DNA from: Halorhabdus sp. BNX81
GTDB lineage: Archaea > Halobacteriota > Halobacteria > Halobacteriales > Haloarculaceae
Assembly: GCF_029229925.1 (NCBI RefSeq)
Contig: NZ_CP107254.1
Coordinates: 2,170,001-2,234,000 of the forward strand
Reading direction: 5' to 3'
DNA: 64,000 nt
A program made the translations under genes and the position numbers. Shown piece by piece: positions 8,653 through 15,528 of the stretch. Every line of letters begins with the position of its first letter. Position 1 is the first letter of the stretch. A model generated the notes under the pieces. That model ran no database searches. It was not told the DNA's origin and saw nothing but the letters and a program-made list of their open reading frames with translations.

Positions 8653-9537
8653 TCACTGTCGTAAGTCGACCAGCGGCACCGTCTCGCGGACGTCAAAGTC
8701 GAAGCGATCGGTGGCGAGCAAGCCGACGCCGAACAGTCCGGCAACGCCGACCGCCAGCCAGTTGCCGTACCAGGCGTTGATCGCGCCCCAGAGGATCACG
8801 AAACTCACCAGATCATCGAGCATGAACCCAGTCCGGTCGAGTCGGTCGAGCAGGCCGGCGCGCTCAAAGCCCAGGTCAAAGGCGAGGACGGCGACGCTCG
8901 CGCTCAGGATCCAGCCGAGATAGTTCGACAGCGGCACGCCGTAGAAGTGAATGGCGGTTGCACTCGCCCAGGCACCGTCACCCGTGAGTGGCGGGGCGTA
9001 CTCCCAGAAGCCCAGGCCCACGGCCCCCGGATCGAGCACGAGATCCATCGCGAGGACGGTCGCGACGACTGCCGGGAGGCGGATTCGGGTCAGCGCGGCA
9101 CGGTCGCCAAGCAGGAGCAAACAGAGCAGGTAGGCGTTCAGGACCAGCGGGAAGAAGAAGATCGGCAGTGCCGCCGGCACTGTATCCAGCAACATCGGCC
9201 CGAGATCGATGACGTACTCGAAGTCGCCGTAGGGCAGTCCCGTGAGAACGCCGAGAAACTCGATCCCGTACGTATACAGCGTCAGCCCGACGATCGCAAG
9301 GCCGGCCCGGCGGTCGATCAGCGGCGCGACGCCGGCGATCAGCGGGAGGCGCATCACGGCCGTCCCGAACAGGACGAGGTAGGGATTGAACTCCAGGATA
9401 CCCGGGAACCATCCCTCCGCGCTGGCGACGAGCATGACGGCTCCGATCGCGGGGAAGAGGACCGCGATGGCAAAGCGGTTCTGGGCGACGTAGCTGTCGA
9501 GTCGGGCCTCCATGCGTCGGCGATCGAACTCAGCCAC
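8653..9537 (-). CDS. cruF: Bisanhydrobacterioruberin hydratase (CruF)
   Basis: A 294-residue polytopic membrane protein (about seven hydrophobic segments) of the carotenoid-hydratase family formerly called DUF422. It adds water to the psi-ends of bisanhydrobacterioruberin, the last step to the C50 red pigment bacterioruberin. The family block FEYVIDLGPMLLDTVPAALP is present. It is the third gene of crtD-lyeJ-cruF, the same order reported for Haloarcula japonica. Its start overlaps the end of lyeJ by 8 bp. Confidence 0.92.
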   Translation of the reverse strand: MAEFDRRRMEARLDSYVAQNRFAIAVLFPAIGAVMLVASAEGWFPGILEFNPYLVLFGTAVMRLPLIAGVAPLIDRRAGLAIVGLTLYTYGIEFLGVLTGLPYGDFEYVIDLGPMLLDTVPAALPIFFFPLVLNAYLLCLLLLGDRAALTRIRLPAVVATVLAMDLVLDPGAVGLGFWEYAPPLTGDGAWASATAIHFYGVPLSNYLGWILSASVAVLAFDLGFERAGLLDRLDRTGFMLDDLVSFVILWGAINAWYGNWLAVGVAGLFGVGLLATDRFDFDVRETVPLVDLRQ

Positions 9538-10411
9538 CGTACATCAGCCTCCAGAGATACCCCATCGTCAGGGCCATGCCGACGACAGTGTTGATCGCCG
9601 GGAACCACCAGTAGGCACGGTCGACCGCGACCCCCGAGACGGCGATTCCGACCTGCAACAGGGGGTAAACGGCGAGTGTCGCGCCGAGCAGCGGGTGAAT
9701 CAGAGCGAACGCCCCGGCAGCCAGCGCCCAGACGATCCCGCAGTAGGCATAGGTCCGACGTTGCCCGAGGACAGTCGCCGTCGTGGCGATCCCGGCACGG
9801 CGGTCGGGTTCGATGTCGGGGATGGCCGAGAACGTGTGCATCGCCATGGTCCAGAGCCACCCCCCGACGATCGCCGGCGTGGGTGGTAACTCGCCCGCGA
9901 CGGCCGTGAACGCCAACACGCCCGGCAGGACGTACAGGCCGTTCGACAGCGAATCGAGGCCGGGCGTCGTCTTGAAGCGGAAGGGTGGGGCGCTGTACTC
10001 GACAGCGAGGACGAGAAACGCCGCGAGCGTGACTTTCCCCGCAGGCCCAACGACGAGCGCGAAGGGAACTGCGAGCAGTCCGGAGCCGATCACGACGGCA
10101 AGGACCCACCGCTCGCCCGAAAAGCGGACTTCGGGTCCCTCGTCCTTTTTGGGGTTCTCGGTGTCGATGTCGGCGTCGAAGACGTCGTTGACGCCATAGA
10201 GGAAGACGTTCGCGGGCACGAGGAAGTACGCGAACAGCGCGACCGACAGCGGGGTGATGAGGTCGCCCCTCGAGCCGGCGGCGTAGACGACACCGATCAC
10301 GACCGGGCCGGCCAGATACAGCCAAAAGCGAGGTCGTGAGAGAACCAGCAGGTACCGCAGCCGATCGAGCAGGCTCGACCGCCCCGCGCGTCCGGACGCT
10401 GTCGCCATCAT
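9530..10411 (-). CDS. lyeJ: Lycopene elongase/hydratase, UbiA-type prenyltransferase (LyeJ)
   Basis: A 293-residue membrane prenyltransferase that adds C5 units to lycopene during bacterioruberin synthesis. The UbiA signature is NDVFDADIDTENPKKD, with Asp residues that bind Mg-diphosphate. The second Asp-rich loop is present as AIPDIEPDRRAG. Eight or nine hydrophobic helices follow the usual pattern. The ATG at 10411 overlaps the crtD stop codon (ATGA), so the pair is translationally coupled. The frame remains open for another 400 bp upstream, but that part is a shadow of crtD. Confidence 0.93.
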   Translation of the reverse strand: MMATASGRAGRSSLLDRLRYLLVLSRPRFWLYLAGPVVIGVVYAAGSRGDLITPLSVALFAYFLVPANVFLYGVNDVFDADIDTENPKKDEGPEVRFSGERWVLAVVIGSGLLAVPFALVVGPAGKVTLAAFLVLAVEYSAPPFRFKTTPGLDSLSNGLYVLPGVLAFTAVAGELPPTPAIVGGWLWTMAMHTFSAIPDIEPDRRAGIATTATVLGQRRTYAYCGIVWALAAGAFALIHPLLGATLAVYPLLQVGIAVSGVAVDRAYWWFPAINTVVGMALTMGYLWRLMYGG

Positions 10412-11967
10412 CGACTGTTTTCGAGGACGGCCTGGGCTGCGTGTTCGCCGCTGATCAGACACATCGGCACGCCGACCCCGGGCGTCGAGTAGCCCCCGGT
10501 GAAGTACAGATCCTCGACCGCCGAGGACTCGATGGGCGGCCGGAGCATCGCCGTCTGGCGGAGGGTGTGGGCCAGCCCCATCGCGGTGCCCTTCGTCGCG
10601 TTGTACCGGTCGGCGAACTCCGAAATGGAGAACTGTTCCTCGACGACGATCCGGTCTTCGAGTTCGACGCCGGTGTTCTCGGCGATGTCGGCGATGATTT
10701 TGTCGCGGTAGCGATCCCGCGTCTCCTGTGGGTCGTCGAGTTCGGTGGCGATCGGGACCAGCGCAAAGAGGTTGGTGTGGCCCTCGGGAGCCACGTCGTC
10801 GTCGGTTTTCGAGGGGACACACAGGTAGTAAGAGGGGTCCTCGGGCCAGGCCGGGTCCTCGAAGATGTCGTCGAAGTACTCGCCCCAGTCGGTCGGGAAC
10901 ACGAGTGAATGGTGTTCGAGTTCGGGAACCTCGCCCTCGACGCCGAGATATAGCAGGAACGCCGAAGGGGCGTAGGTTCGGTCGTCCCAGTAGCCGGCGT
11001 CATATTGGCGTTCGTGGGCCGGCATGAGATCCTGCTCGGCGTGAGCGTAGTCGGCGTTGGCGACGACCACGTCGGGCCGGCGCTGGTCGCCGTCGGCCGT
11101 CTCCAGGAGGAACCCGTCCTTGCGGCGGGTGATCTCCGTGACCTCGGTGTCGGTCTCGATGGTCACGCCCAGTTCCTCGGCAAGGTCGACGATCGCGTCG
11201 ACGACGGCTCCGATGCCGCCCGGTCCACCGTCGACGGGCTGGGGATAGTAGACGCCGAGGTTGAAGTCGGCGTGACTCATCATGTTGTAGATCGCCGGTG
11301 TGTTCGAAGGCGAGCCGCCGAGGAAGACCAGCGTGTACTGGACGATCTGCTGGAGTTTTTCGTTCTCGAAATAGTCCTCGACGTGGCCTTGCATCGACTG
11401 AAACAGTTTCAGTCCGAGTGTGCCAGTCTTCATGAGCGACGGGTCGATCCAGTCTTTCCAGGACGGACGGTACTCGTAGACGAAGTTCTCCATGGACATC
11501 TCGTAGTGGCGCTGACTCGTCCTGAGATACGCATCGAAGGCCTCGCCGGCCCCTTCTTCGTAGGATTCGAACAGTTCGCGGTTCTCGTTGCGGTTCGCGC
11601 TGATATCGACCACGTCGCTCCCTGCCTGCAGGGCCTGTTCGCCCGACCGTTCCGAGGCGCTTCCCGCCTCGTTGTCTTTGAAGAAGATCCGATAGTGGGG
11701 ATCCAGTCGTTCGAGTTCGTAGTAATCCTCGGGTTCGTGACCGAAATGTTCGAAGAAGCGTTCGAACACCTCCGGCATGAGATACCACGACGGCCCCATG
11801 TCGAAGACGAACCCGTCACGTTCCAGTCGGGAGGCACGGCCCCCGACGGCCTCGTTTTTCTCGACGATCGTCACGTCGACACCGGCGTCGGCGAGGTGAC
11901 AGGCCGCCGAAAGCCCGCCAAAGCCCCCGCCGACGATAGTGACCTCGGCGTCCGTTGCAGTGGTCAT
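10408..11967 (-). CDS. crtD: Carotenoid 3,4-desaturase (CrtD), phytoene-desaturase family
   Basis: A 519-residue FAD-dependent oxidoreductase. The N-terminal dinucleotide-binding motif is TIVGGGFGGLSAACHLADAG, followed by the GGRASRLERDGFVFDMGPS block typical of CrtI-like desaturases. The C-terminal FAD motif is YFTGGYSTPGVGVPMCLISG. In haloarchaea this homologue introduces the 3,4 double bonds on the way to bacterioruberin. The first ATG in frame with family homology is at 11967; a TTG nine bases earlier is less likely. A TATTTAAG-type promoter lies about 29 bp upstream, indicating a leaderless operon message. Confidence 0.92.
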   Translation of the reverse strand: MTTATDAEVTIVGGGFGGLSAACHLADAGVDVTIVEKNEAVGGRASRLERDGFVFDMGPSWYLMPEVFERFFEHFGHEPEDYYELERLDPHYRIFFKDNEAGSASERSGEQALQAGSDVVDISANRNENRELFESYEEGAGEAFDAYLRTSQRHYEMSMENFVYEYRPSWKDWIDPSLMKTGTLGLKLFQSMQGHVEDYFENEKLQQIVQYTLVFLGGSPSNTPAIYNMMSHADFNLGVYYPQPVDGGPGGIGAVVDAIVDLAEELGVTIETDTEVTEITRRKDGFLLETADGDQRRPDVVVANADYAHAEQDLMPAHERQYDAGYWDDRTYAPSAFLLYLGVEGEVPELEHHSLVFPTDWGEYFDDIFEDPAWPEDPSYYLCVPSKTDDDVAPEGHTNLFALVPIATELDDPQETRDRYRDKIIADIAENTGVELEDRIVVEEQFSISEFADRYNATKGTAMGLAHTLRQTAMLRPPIESSAVEDLYFTGGYSTPGVGVPMCLISGEHAAQAVLENSR

Positions 11968-11991
11968 CGCGCTCAACCAACGGGTGGCTCC

Positions 11992-12062: not shown

Positions 12063-12932
12063 ATGAATATTAAACCAAGAAAAATTCTTAATAATATTCG
12101 CCAGGAGACTCTGCTGGGGGGTGTCTCGACACTTTCGCTGGTCGGACTGACGATTCTGGCGGTATTAACAGCACAGCCCGAGGATAATCTGGAGAAGCTG
12201 GTCGTCATCGCCTGGGTTGCGTTCGGAGCGATGGCCGGCGGCGCGGCCGTCGGTGCGATGTCGAAGCGGAGCCATCCGCGGGGACTCGTCTGGGGATACG
12301 GGCTGGCCAGTGGGGCGATGATCGCGAGTGCCGCGGCGTTTCTGATCCCGCAGGCTATCGGCCAGCATGGAAAAGTCGGCGGATTCGGCATCGCCGCCGG
12401 GATCCTCGTCGGGTACAACGCCCACACGATCGGGCATCGGCTCTCCCATCTCGACCTGCCGATGGACACGACAGCCACGGAACTGGCCGCTCACGCGCTC
12501 TCGGCGGGATTGATCATCGGCATCATCTACGGCCAGATGCCCGAGCTCGGGATCCTGCTCGGGCTGGCGATCGTCTCCCACAAGGGGCCAGCGGGCTATG
12601 CGGCCGCGCGCCGACAGACGCTTGAGGGCGAATCGGCGCTCCCGCTGTTGTTGCCCTCGGCCGGCGTCGGCCTGACGGCGCTGCCGGTGGCCATGCTCTC
12701 GCTCCCGAGTTCGGCGACGATCAACGCGGCCATCTTCGGGTTCGCCTCGGGCGTGTTCCTCCACGTCGCGATGGACTTCCTGCCGTCCTGTGAAGTGGGC
12801 GGCGAGATCGACCAGGCTGCGGGCATCACCGAAACCTCACACGAACTGCTGGATCGCCTGCGCGTCCAGTCGCTGTTCTCGACGAGTCTGGGCGGCGTGG
12901 CGGTCGTGATCGCCTGGCTGCTGGTCCCCTGA
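12063..12932 (+). CDS. ZIP-family metal transporter
   Basis: A 289-residue membrane protein with about eight hydrophobic helices. The ZIP signature region is in the middle: GYNAHTIGHRLSHLDL and TELAAHALSAGLIIGI carry the His residues of helices IV and V. SHKGPAGYAAA and FLHVAMDFLPSC follow. The usual role is uptake of zinc, iron or manganese. The first 14 codons are very AT-rich and hold an inverted repeat, unlike the rest of the gene. It lies just upstream of an iron-box-controlled copper protein, hinting at a metal-related neighbourhood. The exact metal is not deducible. Confidence 0.85.
   Translation: MNIKPRKILNNIRQETLLGGVSTLSLVGLTILAVLTAQPEDNLEKLVVIAWVAFGAMAGGAAVGAMSKRSHPRGLVWGYGLASGAMIASAAAFLIPQAIGQHGKVGGFGIAAGILVGYNAHTIGHRLSHLDLPMDTTATELAAHALSAGLIIGIIYGQMPELGILLGLAIVSHKGPAGYAAARRQTLEGESALPLLLPSAGVGLTALPVAMLSLPSSATINAAIFGFASGVFLHVAMDFLPSCEVGGEIDQAAGITETSHELLDRLRVQSLFSTSLGGVAVVIAWLLVP
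12065..12099 (+). repeat. AT-rich inverted repeat in the first codons of the ZIP gene
   Basis: GAATATTA at 12065-12072 is inverted at 12092-12099 as TAATATTC. Inside is a second repeat, AAGAA (12077-12081) and TTCTT (12085-12089). The stretch is strikingly AT-rich for this genome and covers the start of the coding region. It could fold in the mRNA or bind a regulator. Confidence 0.45.
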
Positions 12933-12997: not shown

Positions 12998-13013
12998 TTT
13001 TGGCTAGCCTAAA
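12998..13013 (+). promoter_or_regulatory. Distal iron-box-like operator
   Basis: TTTTGGCTAGCCTAAA is a 7+2+7 inverted repeat with one mismatched arm position. The core GGCTAGCC flanked by T/A resembles the TTAGG...CCTAA operators of DtxR-family metalloregulators (SirR/Idr in haloarchaea). It lies 36 bp upstream of the second copy. Confidence 0.65.
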
Positions 13014-13033
13014 GAACGATACGCTTTTGACTC

Positions 13034-13049
13034 TTTAGGCGAGCCTAAA
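13034..13049 (+). promoter_or_regulatory. Proximal iron-box-like operator overlapping the start codon
   Basis: TTTAGGCGAGCCTAAA is a perfect 7-bp inverted repeat with a 2-bp spacer. It overlaps the first base of the ATG at 13049. With a leaderless start, repressor binding here would block the transcription start directly. The match to DtxR/SirR/Idr sites is by consensus memory, not by search. Confidence 0.7.
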
Positions 13050-15496
13050 TGACGATGCCAACGAGACGCAATATCCTTTCGAGCGGCGTAGCGATACTGG
13101 GCGGTCTCGGCCTCGCCGGCTGTTCAGCCCCCAACGATTCGACCGCTGGGGCCGATAGCGAAGGAACGGGGACGGGCGCGAGTCAGTCGATCGCCGTCGC
13201 CGCGGAGTGGACGGCGATGCGCGCACGAGTCCGGGACGCGCTGGTACTCGGCCGGGCCGGGGCGACCGGTCCCGGTGGGACTGTCGCCCAGGACATCTTC
13301 GCGCGCTTCGAGAACGCCGGTGGCGAATACGGTGCCCACGAGCAACTGGAGCACACCGACGAGGCGGCCTACGAGGAGTTCGAGACCGCGCTCGGGGCGC
13401 TCTACACGGACGGGCTCGGAAACGGTGATCTCGACCGGGCAGGCGAGGCCGCGGAGACCGCCACGGCACGACTCGCCGACGCCCAGCAAACGCTGGTCGG
13501 CGAGAACGCTGCCGCAGTGTTCGATCTGGACACGCTGGCGGCGACGATCCGGGACGTCATGTACCTCGCGGAGATCGACCGCCTGGATGCGGCGGCGACC
13601 GTCGCGAACAACGCCCGGACACGCTTCGAGGACAGCGATCTCGCTGACGCTCTCGAAGACGCCGACAGCGACGCATTCGATTCCCTGACGGGCGGGCTCG
13701 ACGGACTGGCGTCGGCTGCCGAGGCTGGTGACAGCTCTCGGACGATGACGAACGCCGACCTGGCCTTCCAGGCGGCGATCCAGAGCAGTTACGCGCTGGC
13801 GGACAACGAGGCCGTGGCGGGTGCCGGTCACATCGCCATCCTCCAGGCGATGGGCTGGGACGCCGCCGCGCTGGCCGCCATGGGCGGTCCCTCGACCGGC
13901 GTCGCCCACGCCGCGACCTTGACGACCTACCGCGCCCGGATCGCGGACGCCGGCCGCCTCGCCGACGCCGGGGAGACCGAGCAGGCAGCAACCATGGTCC
14001 AGAACGTCTTCGCGCACTTCGAGGGCGCCCGCGCCCACGACGCGCTGGAATCCGCCGACGCCGAGACCTACGAGGCCTTCGAGTCGAGCCTGGAAGCGCT
14101 CCAGACTGCGATCGACGAGGAGTCGGGGGTCGAGGAGGCCGTCGCGACGGTCGACGAGCACCTCGTCACCGGGATCGAGGCGCTGGCTGGGGAGGACGCG
14201 CCGCTCCTGGCGGCCGCATTCTTCCGAGCCCGCGTGGTCGACGCCCGCGAGCGCTACCGGCGCGGCGAGGCGGACGCTGCGGCCGCCATCGCCCAGCGGT
14301 TGTTCGAGCGCTTCGAGGAGGACGAACTCGGGTTCCACGAGACCGTCGAGGAGACGAGCGAGGATCTCTATCACGCCTTCGAGGAGGAGCACCTCGCGGG
14401 CCTGATCGACGCCTTCGAGGCCAGCGACGACGACGCCGTGGCGACCCACGTCGAGGGCGTTCACTCGACGCTCCTTGAGTTCGCGACGACCGCGGCCGAG
14501 ACGCCCGCGGTGAGTGCGGCCGAGGCCGCCTACGTCGCCGCCCGCGGGTTCAACGCCGGGACCCTGAGCGCGCGCGGCGAGAGCGACCGTGCCGCGGCGG
14601 TCGCTCAGTCGACCTTCGAACACTTCGAGGGCGACCCCGGTGGCTATCACGAGGCCGTAGAGCACGCCGACGAGGAGATCTACGAAACCTTCGAGCAAGC
14701 CCTGGGTTCGATCCGTCAGGCGGCCGACGCCGGCGACTCCGTCGCGACACCGGTCGAGACGTTCACGACGGCAGCCCTCGACTCGGCCTACGCGATCGTC
14801 GAGAGCGCCGGTGGCCCCCAGCGCGATATCGCACACGGCATCGTCGAGGACACCTTCGCGCACTTCGAGGCGGCTCGGGTGCACGAACTCGTCGAGGAGG
14901 CCGATCGCAACGCCTACGAGACCTTCGAGGGCCACCTGGAGGCCTACGTCGACGCGCTGGACAGCGGGGGTGACGTGCCCGCGGCGGCCGCCGGCTTCGC
15001 GAACGCCGCCCAGTACGCCCAGTTCGCCATCGTCGACGCGAGCGAGAAGGTCCCCCTGGATCTCGACCTCGCCGGATCGACAGTCGACGTCGAAAGCGAG
15101 GCCGGCGAGAACGAGAGCGAGTCCCCCTTCGAGGGCGGGCCCAACGTCGTCGAGGGCGTCCCGGACGACGCCGACCACGTTGTCGACATGACGGCCGCCG
15201 CCTTCGATCCCAAAGAGCTGACCGTCTCGGCCGGCGACACCGTCGCCTGGGAGTTCGCCAGCGGCGAACCGCACACGGTGACTGCCTACGACGACGGCAT
15301 CCCCGCGGATGCCGAGTACTGGGCCTCCGGTGACTTCGACAGCGAGGCAGCCGCCCGTAAGGGGTGGGAAAACGGCGAAGGTGCGATCCAGTCCGGGCAG
15401 TCCTACGTCCACACTTTCGAGACGACCGGCGAACACGAGTACGTCTGTATTCCCCACGAAGCCGTGGGGATGGTCGGGACCGTGATCGTCGAGTAG
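13049..15496 (+). CDS. Tat lipoprotein with ~6 tandem helical repeats and a C-terminal blue-copper domain
   Basis: An 815-residue exported protein. The N-terminus (TRRNILSSG, then LGLAGC with Cys25) is a Tat signal plus lipobox. About six degenerate repeats of 100-120 residues follow, each with an HFE...Y/H-E..E.ad...YE.FE.aL core; examples are HFEGARAHDALESADAETYE and HFEGDPGGYHEAVEHADEEI. This resembles the haloarchaeal DUF5059-type architecture. The last 110 residues are a plastocyanin/halocyanin domain with ligands His in SGEPHTV (about residue 741), Cys800, His803 and Met808. The role is probably electron transfer or metal handling at the outer face of the membrane. Two iron-box operators precede it, so iron regulation is likely. 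An ATG at 13055 is an alternative start. Confidence 0.85.
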   Translation: MTMPTRRNILSSGVAILGGLGLAGCSAPNDSTAGADSEGTGTGASQSIAVAAEWTAMRARVRDALVLGRAGATGPGGTVAQDIFARFENAGGEYGAHEQLEHTDEAAYEEFETALGALYTDGLGNGDLDRAGEAAETATARLADAQQTLVGENAAAVFDLDTLAATIRDVMYLAEIDRLDAAATVANNARTRFEDSDLADALEDADSDAFDSLTGGLDGLASAAEAGDSSRTMTNADLAFQAAIQSSYALADNEAVAGAGHIAILQAMGWDAAALAAMGGPSTGVAHAATLTTYRARIADAGRLADAGETEQAATMVQNVFAHFEGARAHDALESADAETYEAFESSLEALQTAIDEESGVEEAVATVDEHLVTGIEALAGEDAPLLAAAFFRARVVDARERYRRGEADAAAAIAQRLFERFEEDELGFHETVEETSEDLYHAFEEEHLAGLIDAFEASDDDAVATHVEGVHSTLLEFATTAAETPAVSAAEAAYVAARGFNAGTLSARGESDRAAAVAQSTFEHFEGDPGGYHEAVEHADEEIYETFEQALGSIRQAADAGDSVATPVETFTTAALDSAYAIVESAGGPQRDIAHGIVEDTFAHFEAARVHELVEEADRNAYETFEGHLEAYVDALDSGGDVPAAAAGFANAAQYAQFAIVDASEKVPLDLDLAGSTVDVESEAGENESESPFEGGPNVVEGVPDDADHVVDMTAAAFDPKELTVSAGDTVAWEFASGEPHTVTAYDDGIPADAEYWASGDFDSEAAARKGWENGEGAIQSGQSYVHTFETTGEHEYVCIPHEAVGMVGTVIVE

Positions 15497-15522
15497 CGAA
15501 CCCGACCGGTAGCCGTTGTCCA

Positions 15523-15528
15523 TTTTTT
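15523..15528 (+). terminator. Possible T-run terminator
   Basis: Six consecutive T lie 26 bp after the stop codon of the blue-copper gene and before the next promoter. It is a typical archaeal intrinsic terminator candidate. Confidence 0.4.

Follow-up and report, generated by a model that had tools for sequence, protein, structure and literature searches.

Several described systems resemble parts of the locus analyzed here. Among archaeal metal regulators, Idr1 and Idr2 of Halobacterium and Idr, SirR and TroR of Haloferax are named in PMC11349517, and MDR1 of Archaeoglobus fulgidus is reported as a metal-dependent repressor that, bound downstream of the TATA box, blocks the recruitment of RNA polymerase (PMC2995911, PMC4158304). 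On the protein side, EfeO of the EfeUOB system is presented as an exported, iron-linked protein in which a cupredoxin accompanies a part that is entirely helical and bears His/Glu motifs (PMC9174327). FtrB of FtrABCD is presented as a 10-kDa cupredoxin and proposed ferrous oxidase, which is induced at low iron and has an FTR1-type permease as its partner (PMC11966278). Here we describe a gene of Halorhabdus sp. BNX81 that combines features of both groups. The gene lies in a 64-kb stretch of the genome, which was analyzed as a whole and is referred to below as the window.

Paired palindromes around the probable core promoter of a DUF5059 gene

Two 14-bp palindromes, the distal TTTGGCTAGCCTAA (12999-13012) and the proximal TTAGGCGAGCCTAA (13035-13048), neither assigned to a strand, lie upstream of a gene encoding a DUF5059 protein, with a start-to-start distance of 36 bp. 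They match the consensus TTAGGCNNGCCTAA at 11/12 and 12/12 positions, respectively, and are the only sites in the whole window that match it at 10/12 or better. The earlier note on this DNA had reported two DtxR/SirR-like palindromes 36 bp apart before the gene, and both the palindromes and their spacing were confirmed. Across the 2.83-Mb genome, the exact sequence TTAGGNNNNCCTAA occurs at 5 sites, against 0.13 expected under a first-order background model trained on 187 kb of the genome. With one mismatch allowed, 15 genome sites were found, fewer than the 40 given by a reversed-pattern control. Lone one-mismatch sites therefore carry no weight, and, as single sites are not significant, the value of such boxes lies in their position and conservation. 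The comparison of 15 with 40 would favor the view that the two palindromes arose by chance or as structural repeats and have no operator function. The exact sites, so far above their expected number, argue against that view, as do a box position kept in 99 of 99 upstream regions, a yield of less than one from shuffled regions and a fixed spacing (see below), and we consider it extremely improbable.

A probable core promoter with a BRE/TATA-like sequence, CGATACGCTTTTGA (13017..13030, plus strand), lies between the boxes; its position is deduced from an AT-rich block in aligned relatives. In the aligned DUF5059 relatives, this block occupies positions -30 to -26 relative to the start codon, between the boxes, and is preceded by C/G-A-A columns, which we take to be the TATA and BRE elements expected for a leaderless promoter. 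The TATA region reads CTTTTG in the BNX81 gene, which matches less well than CTTAT, the sequence of the genus members. The proximal box thus separates the TATA region from the start codon, and the distal box lies directly upstream of the BRE/TATA, with the same spacing across the class.

According to the earlier note, the proximal box touches the ATG of an 815-residue gene. The box does touch ATG 13049, from which 815 residues are counted, and a second in-frame ATG is found at 13055. Since the start codon lies 5-6 nt past the box in four same-genus relatives, and 3-8 nt past it in 98 of the 98 cases placed by script across the class (93 ATG and 5 GTG), the true start is probably ATG 13055, which lies clear of the box as in the relatives. 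The gene would then extend from 13055 to 15496 on the plus strand and encode 813 residues rather than 815. Read from this start, the protein begins with MPTRRN and carries a leader with a twin-arginine motif and a lipobox (MPTRRN...GLAGC), so the product is probably exported by a Tat-type route and lipid-anchored. Its nearest named relative, from Halorhabdus salina, is 66 per cent identical.

The surroundings of the gene were also inspected. On the minus strand, a 799-residue open frame (13124-15523) runs antisense to almost the whole DUF5059 gene, and a similar open antisense frame faces the DUF5059 gene of a related locus (L081); the 799-residue frame probably arises from codon use at high G+C. 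Upstream, a gene for a ZIP-like membrane protein (12063-12932) is separated from the distal box by 66 bp. This neighbor was considered as a transport partner and dropped as the importer because it was recovered at just one of 27 related loci, some of which are short; only one same-genus relative (L027) shares the neighborhood. No conserved neighboring gene that would be the importer was found in these 27 loci, some of them short. Further upstream, at 8653-11976 on the minus strand, lie genes for a 294-aa membrane protein, a prenyltransferase-like protein and a phytoene-desaturase-like protein, of which the last was profile-scanned; the three genes presumably form a carotenoid (bacterioruberin) cluster.

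Conservation of the operator and the genes that it marks

Of the 391 haloarchaeal genomes sampled, 99 have a DUF5059 match. From these, 99 upstream regions were taken from 98 genomes, as one genome (G145) was excluded for having a single sub-cut-off fragment with a stop and another (G206) gave two regions; some of the 99 belong to fragmentary genes or to short forms. Every one of the 99 regions has a box immediately ahead of the start codon. The script, which demanded a box of at least 10/12 located 3-8 nt before an in-frame start, placed 98 of them, and the region of L081 was read by hand, giving boxes of 12/12 and 11/12 that are 35 bp apart. Shuffled regions contained a box of at least 10/12 in 0.65 of 99 cases. 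A second box 33-38 bp upstream was detected by script in 84 of 98 regions; with L081 counted, the figure is 85 of 99. The background rate was 8 in 9310 offsets. Among nine short forms (L176-L184), whose frames of 506-555 residues carry part of the DUF5059 repeats, seven have a single box and not the pair.

The pair is also found beyond DUF5059 genes. Box pairs with a gap of 20-24 occur in 218 of the 391 genomes, and the reversed-pattern control gave 0 among the matches listed. When strict boxes were required and gaps of 4-34 allowed, 70 of the 391 genomes matched, with a gap of 20-23 in 71 of 75 among the matches listed; the remaining gaps were 6, 12, 15 and 15. We then considered 30 pair loci, which are not a random draw, and used 27, as L103, L104 and L117 have no convincing reading frame nearby. 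The 27 proteins behind these pairs comprise 18 Peripla_BP_2 proteins, 2 DUF5059 proteins, 2 class-III aminotransferases (Aminotran_3), 2 DUF7827 proteins, 1 iron-dependent repressor (Fe_dep_repress) and 2 unmatched proteins, a count that is not one of independent events because several are close orthologues. The two DUF7827 matches are probably the products of genes at L113 (2-1495) and L114 (1558-3051), each of which has a box pair 5 nt upstream, and we know of no link between this family and iron. At L100 (1050-1454), a box pair precedes a gene that matches the N-terminal domain of iron-dependent repressors, which suggests autoregulation of this one repressor. Tandem operators placed in this way around the BRE/TATA of archaea could serve for annotating iron regulons class-wide.

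Within the BNX81 genome, the earlier note had proposed a search for the motif near iron-uptake genes, and had named its absence from every other iron gene as the outcome that would speak against iron control. The motif was present at such genes. A box precedes the FeoA-FeoB pair. Another lies ahead of two successive Peripla_BP_2 genes, where the boxes are again paired, 37 bp apart, and a further one precedes an RGP-like gene, behind which comes an SBP-type ABC cassette with an additional box of its own. Boxes also precede a ZIP gene and a family-2 glycosyltransferase gene. Allowing up to one mismatch, there are 13 other sites, and at six of them (L019, L021, L022, L024, L025 and L026) no evident iron gene was found nearby. 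At two of these, the one-mismatch box stands before an apparent small reading frame: at L019 (4730-4743) a tiny frame of about 49 aa rather than the large neighbor, and at L022 (5625-5638) a Cys-rich, zinc-finger-like frame of about 33 aa. Exact boxes stand just upstream of the RGP-like gene directly before the SBP-type ABC cassette and of the family-2 glycosyltransferase gene (L017 6688-7842 and L018 3776-4534); to our knowledge, iron-controlled glycosyltransferases would be unexpected. No box was found upstream of any of the four other Copper-bind genes of the genome, so that the DUF5059 gene is the only one of the five to have one.

Which regulator would bind these boxes? Three DtxR-family proteins score above the cut-off in the genome (L084, L085 and L086). 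L085 aligns to IdeR/DtxR and keeps the EMYL and HDEACRLEH motifs, whose positions we take to be those of the Met and Cys iron ligands of DtxR. L084 has manganese-type variants of these motifs, and L086 has neither type. In NCBIfam, all three are nearest to an MntR-type model, below its cut-off. The boxes could therefore be read as sites for L084 as an MntR/SirR-like regulator, in which case the gene would answer to manganese or to metal in general. The motifs of L084, the proximity of all three regulators to the MntR model (below cut-off) and the box before the ZIP gene are consistent with this. Against it, the box-marked genes are FeoAB and Peripla_BP_2/siderophore-type genes, L085 has ligands of the DtxR/IdeR type, and the Haloferax gene moves together with siderophore genes (see below); we consider control by manganese unlikely.

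Published expression data come from Haloferax volcanii, where HVO_1228 is annotated as DUF5059 (PMC7714728, Table 2) and as hcpE (PMC9051519). On knock-down of endA, HVO_1228 changes by log2 +4.2 beside siderophore genes (PMC7714728, Table 2), and in a cas1 fen1 mutant it is listed at -2.92, in a table that also contains iucA and two other genes of the siderophore cluster (PMC9051519). Where these two papers list the gene, they draw no link between it and iron. HVO_1228 is not named in the main text of the iron-starvation proteome of Haloferax (PMC11349517), and in the literature searched no paper joined halocyanin with iron starvation in haloarchaea. The HVO_1228 data are co-variation with siderophore genes, not a test of iron control.

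Because the boxes are conserved, mark iron genes and coexist with a DtxR-type regulator, and because the Haloferax gene moves with siderophore genes, we think it very likely, judging from sequence, that an iron-sensing repressor of the DtxR family controls the DUF5059 gene via the tandem operator. The earlier prediction of repression by an iron-responsive regulator is thus strongly supported by the box in 99/99 regions, by its presence at FeoAB, Peripla_BP_2 and ABC genes and by the DtxR-type ligands of L085. In our model, with iron present, repressor dimers would occupy both flanks of the core promoter, from which a leaderless transcript starts, and would exclude TBP/TFB or RNA polymerase. 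Without iron, the DUF5059 gene would be switched on together with Feo and the ABC iron importers. Such two-sided blocking of the basal factors by the repressor is inferred from the geometry of the boxes.

Architecture of the DUF5059-cupredoxin protein

The DUF5059 region (PF16502; 13193..15055, plus strand) contains five complete helical repeats of the form FE...H...E...Y..FE and one degenerate repeat. It matches the Pfam model over residues 49-669 with an E-value of 2.9e-224 and 746.9 bits, against a cut-off of 25. Conservation was assessed in 25 sequences, in which the others are 48-67 per cent identical to the query; the alignment (A1) included 24 of 27 relatives and left out two near-duplicates (L040 and L051) and a fragment (L053). 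In this set, the repeat pattern FxxFE...H...E...Y..FE is invariant or nearly so. The AlphaFold2 model of this part is all helical, with a mean pLDDT of 93.1. No credible solved relative of DUF5059 was found by sequence. In Foldseek, the helical part gave nothing at E<=0.001, the best matches being designed toroids, catenins and vinculin at E>0.01, and the model of the whole protein finds fold matches through the copper domain only.

At the C-terminus, a plastocyanin/halocyanin-like type-1 copper domain (PF00127; 15182..15493, plus strand) matches the Copper-bind model over residues 712-815 with an E-value of 8.4e-16. Its four copper ligands, His742, Cys800, His803 and Met808 (counted from ATG 13049), are invariant in 25 of 25 sequences, and the modelled domain superposes on plastocyanin 2plt with a Z of 13.4 and an rmsd of 1.3 over 91 residues. 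With its intact His-Cys-His-Met site and its Tat and lipobox leader, the protein fits its earlier description as a blue-copper lipoprotein. The score against the NCBIfam halocyanin model TIGR03102 was 47.8 bits, below the curated cut-off of 93.8.

Sequence kinship with EfeO was looked for and rejected. Pairwise BLAST of the DUF5059 repeats against EfeO/M75 gave insignificant local matches, and hhalign gave 0.1 per cent, or 0.4 per cent when pooled repeats were compared with nine EfeO sequences. In a structure listing of the helical part, EfeO (7wgu) appears with a Z of 6.5 and an rmsd of 2.5 over 98 residues, which is at the noise level for helical bundles. The Pfam scan showed no M75 domain (PF09375) in the protein at E<=1. 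M75 and the siderophore synthetase IucA/IucC were not found in the genome, nor was an FTR1 permease, for which the control was positive in E. coli and three others.

Candidate functions and comparison with known systems

Control together with iron importers, an export and lipid-anchor leader, and a copper redox site joined to repeats with metal-type ligands make a role in iron acquisition the one that we prefer. By analogy, the protein may work like EfeO or FtrB, a tentative assignment that we place slightly short of an even chance. The DUF5059 repeats, with their invariant His, Glu and Tyr, would capture iron at the cell surface; the copper site would change the redox state of the iron or pass electrons; and a separate importer, not an FTR1 permease, would then take up the captured iron. 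As a whole, the explanation that joins an iron-repressed tandem operator to copper-dependent iron acquisition at the surface appears reasonably probable.

The earlier note had suggested that the copper protein might replace an Fe-based carrier. Under such a swap, a copper carrier would be made in place of an iron-containing one at low iron, in keeping with the intact type-1 copper site and the iron-box control. This suggestion loses force, since haloarchaea already rely on halocyanin for this task, and it is described as standing in for cytochrome c there in any event (PMC8305020). The four other Copper-bind genes, moreover, have no iron boxes, and the helical repeats with invariant His/Glu would go unexplained; such a swap is improbable. 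Copper scavenging, or metal sparing, in which the lipoprotein would bind copper, or several metals, to let copper enzymes stand in for iron enzymes while playing no direct part in iron uptake, fares a little better. The copper domain is intact in all 25 sequences, the His/Glu repeats could bind several metals, and EfeM itself is reported to prefer copper, iron and zinc (PMC9174327). The co-regulated genes are, however, iron importers and not known copper genes, and we regard scavenging as a minor possibility.

Returning to iron acquisition, we speculate that the DUF5059-cupredoxins form a separate archaeal family for copper-dependent iron acquisition, in which each repeat would hold one iron, the blue-copper domain would set the redox state, a non-FTR1 importer would follow and a paired operator would control expression; in this full form the proposal is rather unlikely. 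A large, uncharacterized family, present in 99 of 391 genomes, is tied to iron starvation by a signature found in every region examined, and DUF5059 proteins offer a testable link between copper and iron in archaea.

Like halocyanins (hcpE/hcpG-type annotations, including HVO_1228), the BNX81 protein has a type-1 copper domain and a lipobox, and annotated relatives have the DUF5059 architecture; unlike a halocyanin, it has 620 extra residues of helical repeats. With EfeO it shares the joining of a cupredoxin to a helical His/Glu part in an exported protein. However, EfeO has an N-terminal Cupredoxin_1 domain and M75, whereas the BNX81 protein has DUF5059 and a C-terminal plastocyanin-type domain. 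As it lacks M75 and its genome lacks FTR1, the BNX81 protein is not an EfeO. FtrB is likewise a cupredoxin tied to iron uptake, but it is a 10-kDa single domain that works with an FTR1-type permease, and no FTR1 was found in the BNX81 genome.

As for regulation, the locus resembles the haloarchaeal DtxR/IdeR iron regulons: a palindrome stands at the core promoter, the targets include iron importers and the genome encodes several DtxR-family proteins. What sets it apart in our comparison is that a blue-copper DUF5059 lipoprotein is a predicted target (99/99) and that the operators are paired around the TATA region. MDR1 of A. fulgidus similarly provides metal-dependent archaeal repression from a site downstream of TATA; here, in contrast, a second box lies upstream of the BRE/TATA, and the whole core promoter may therefore be occluded.
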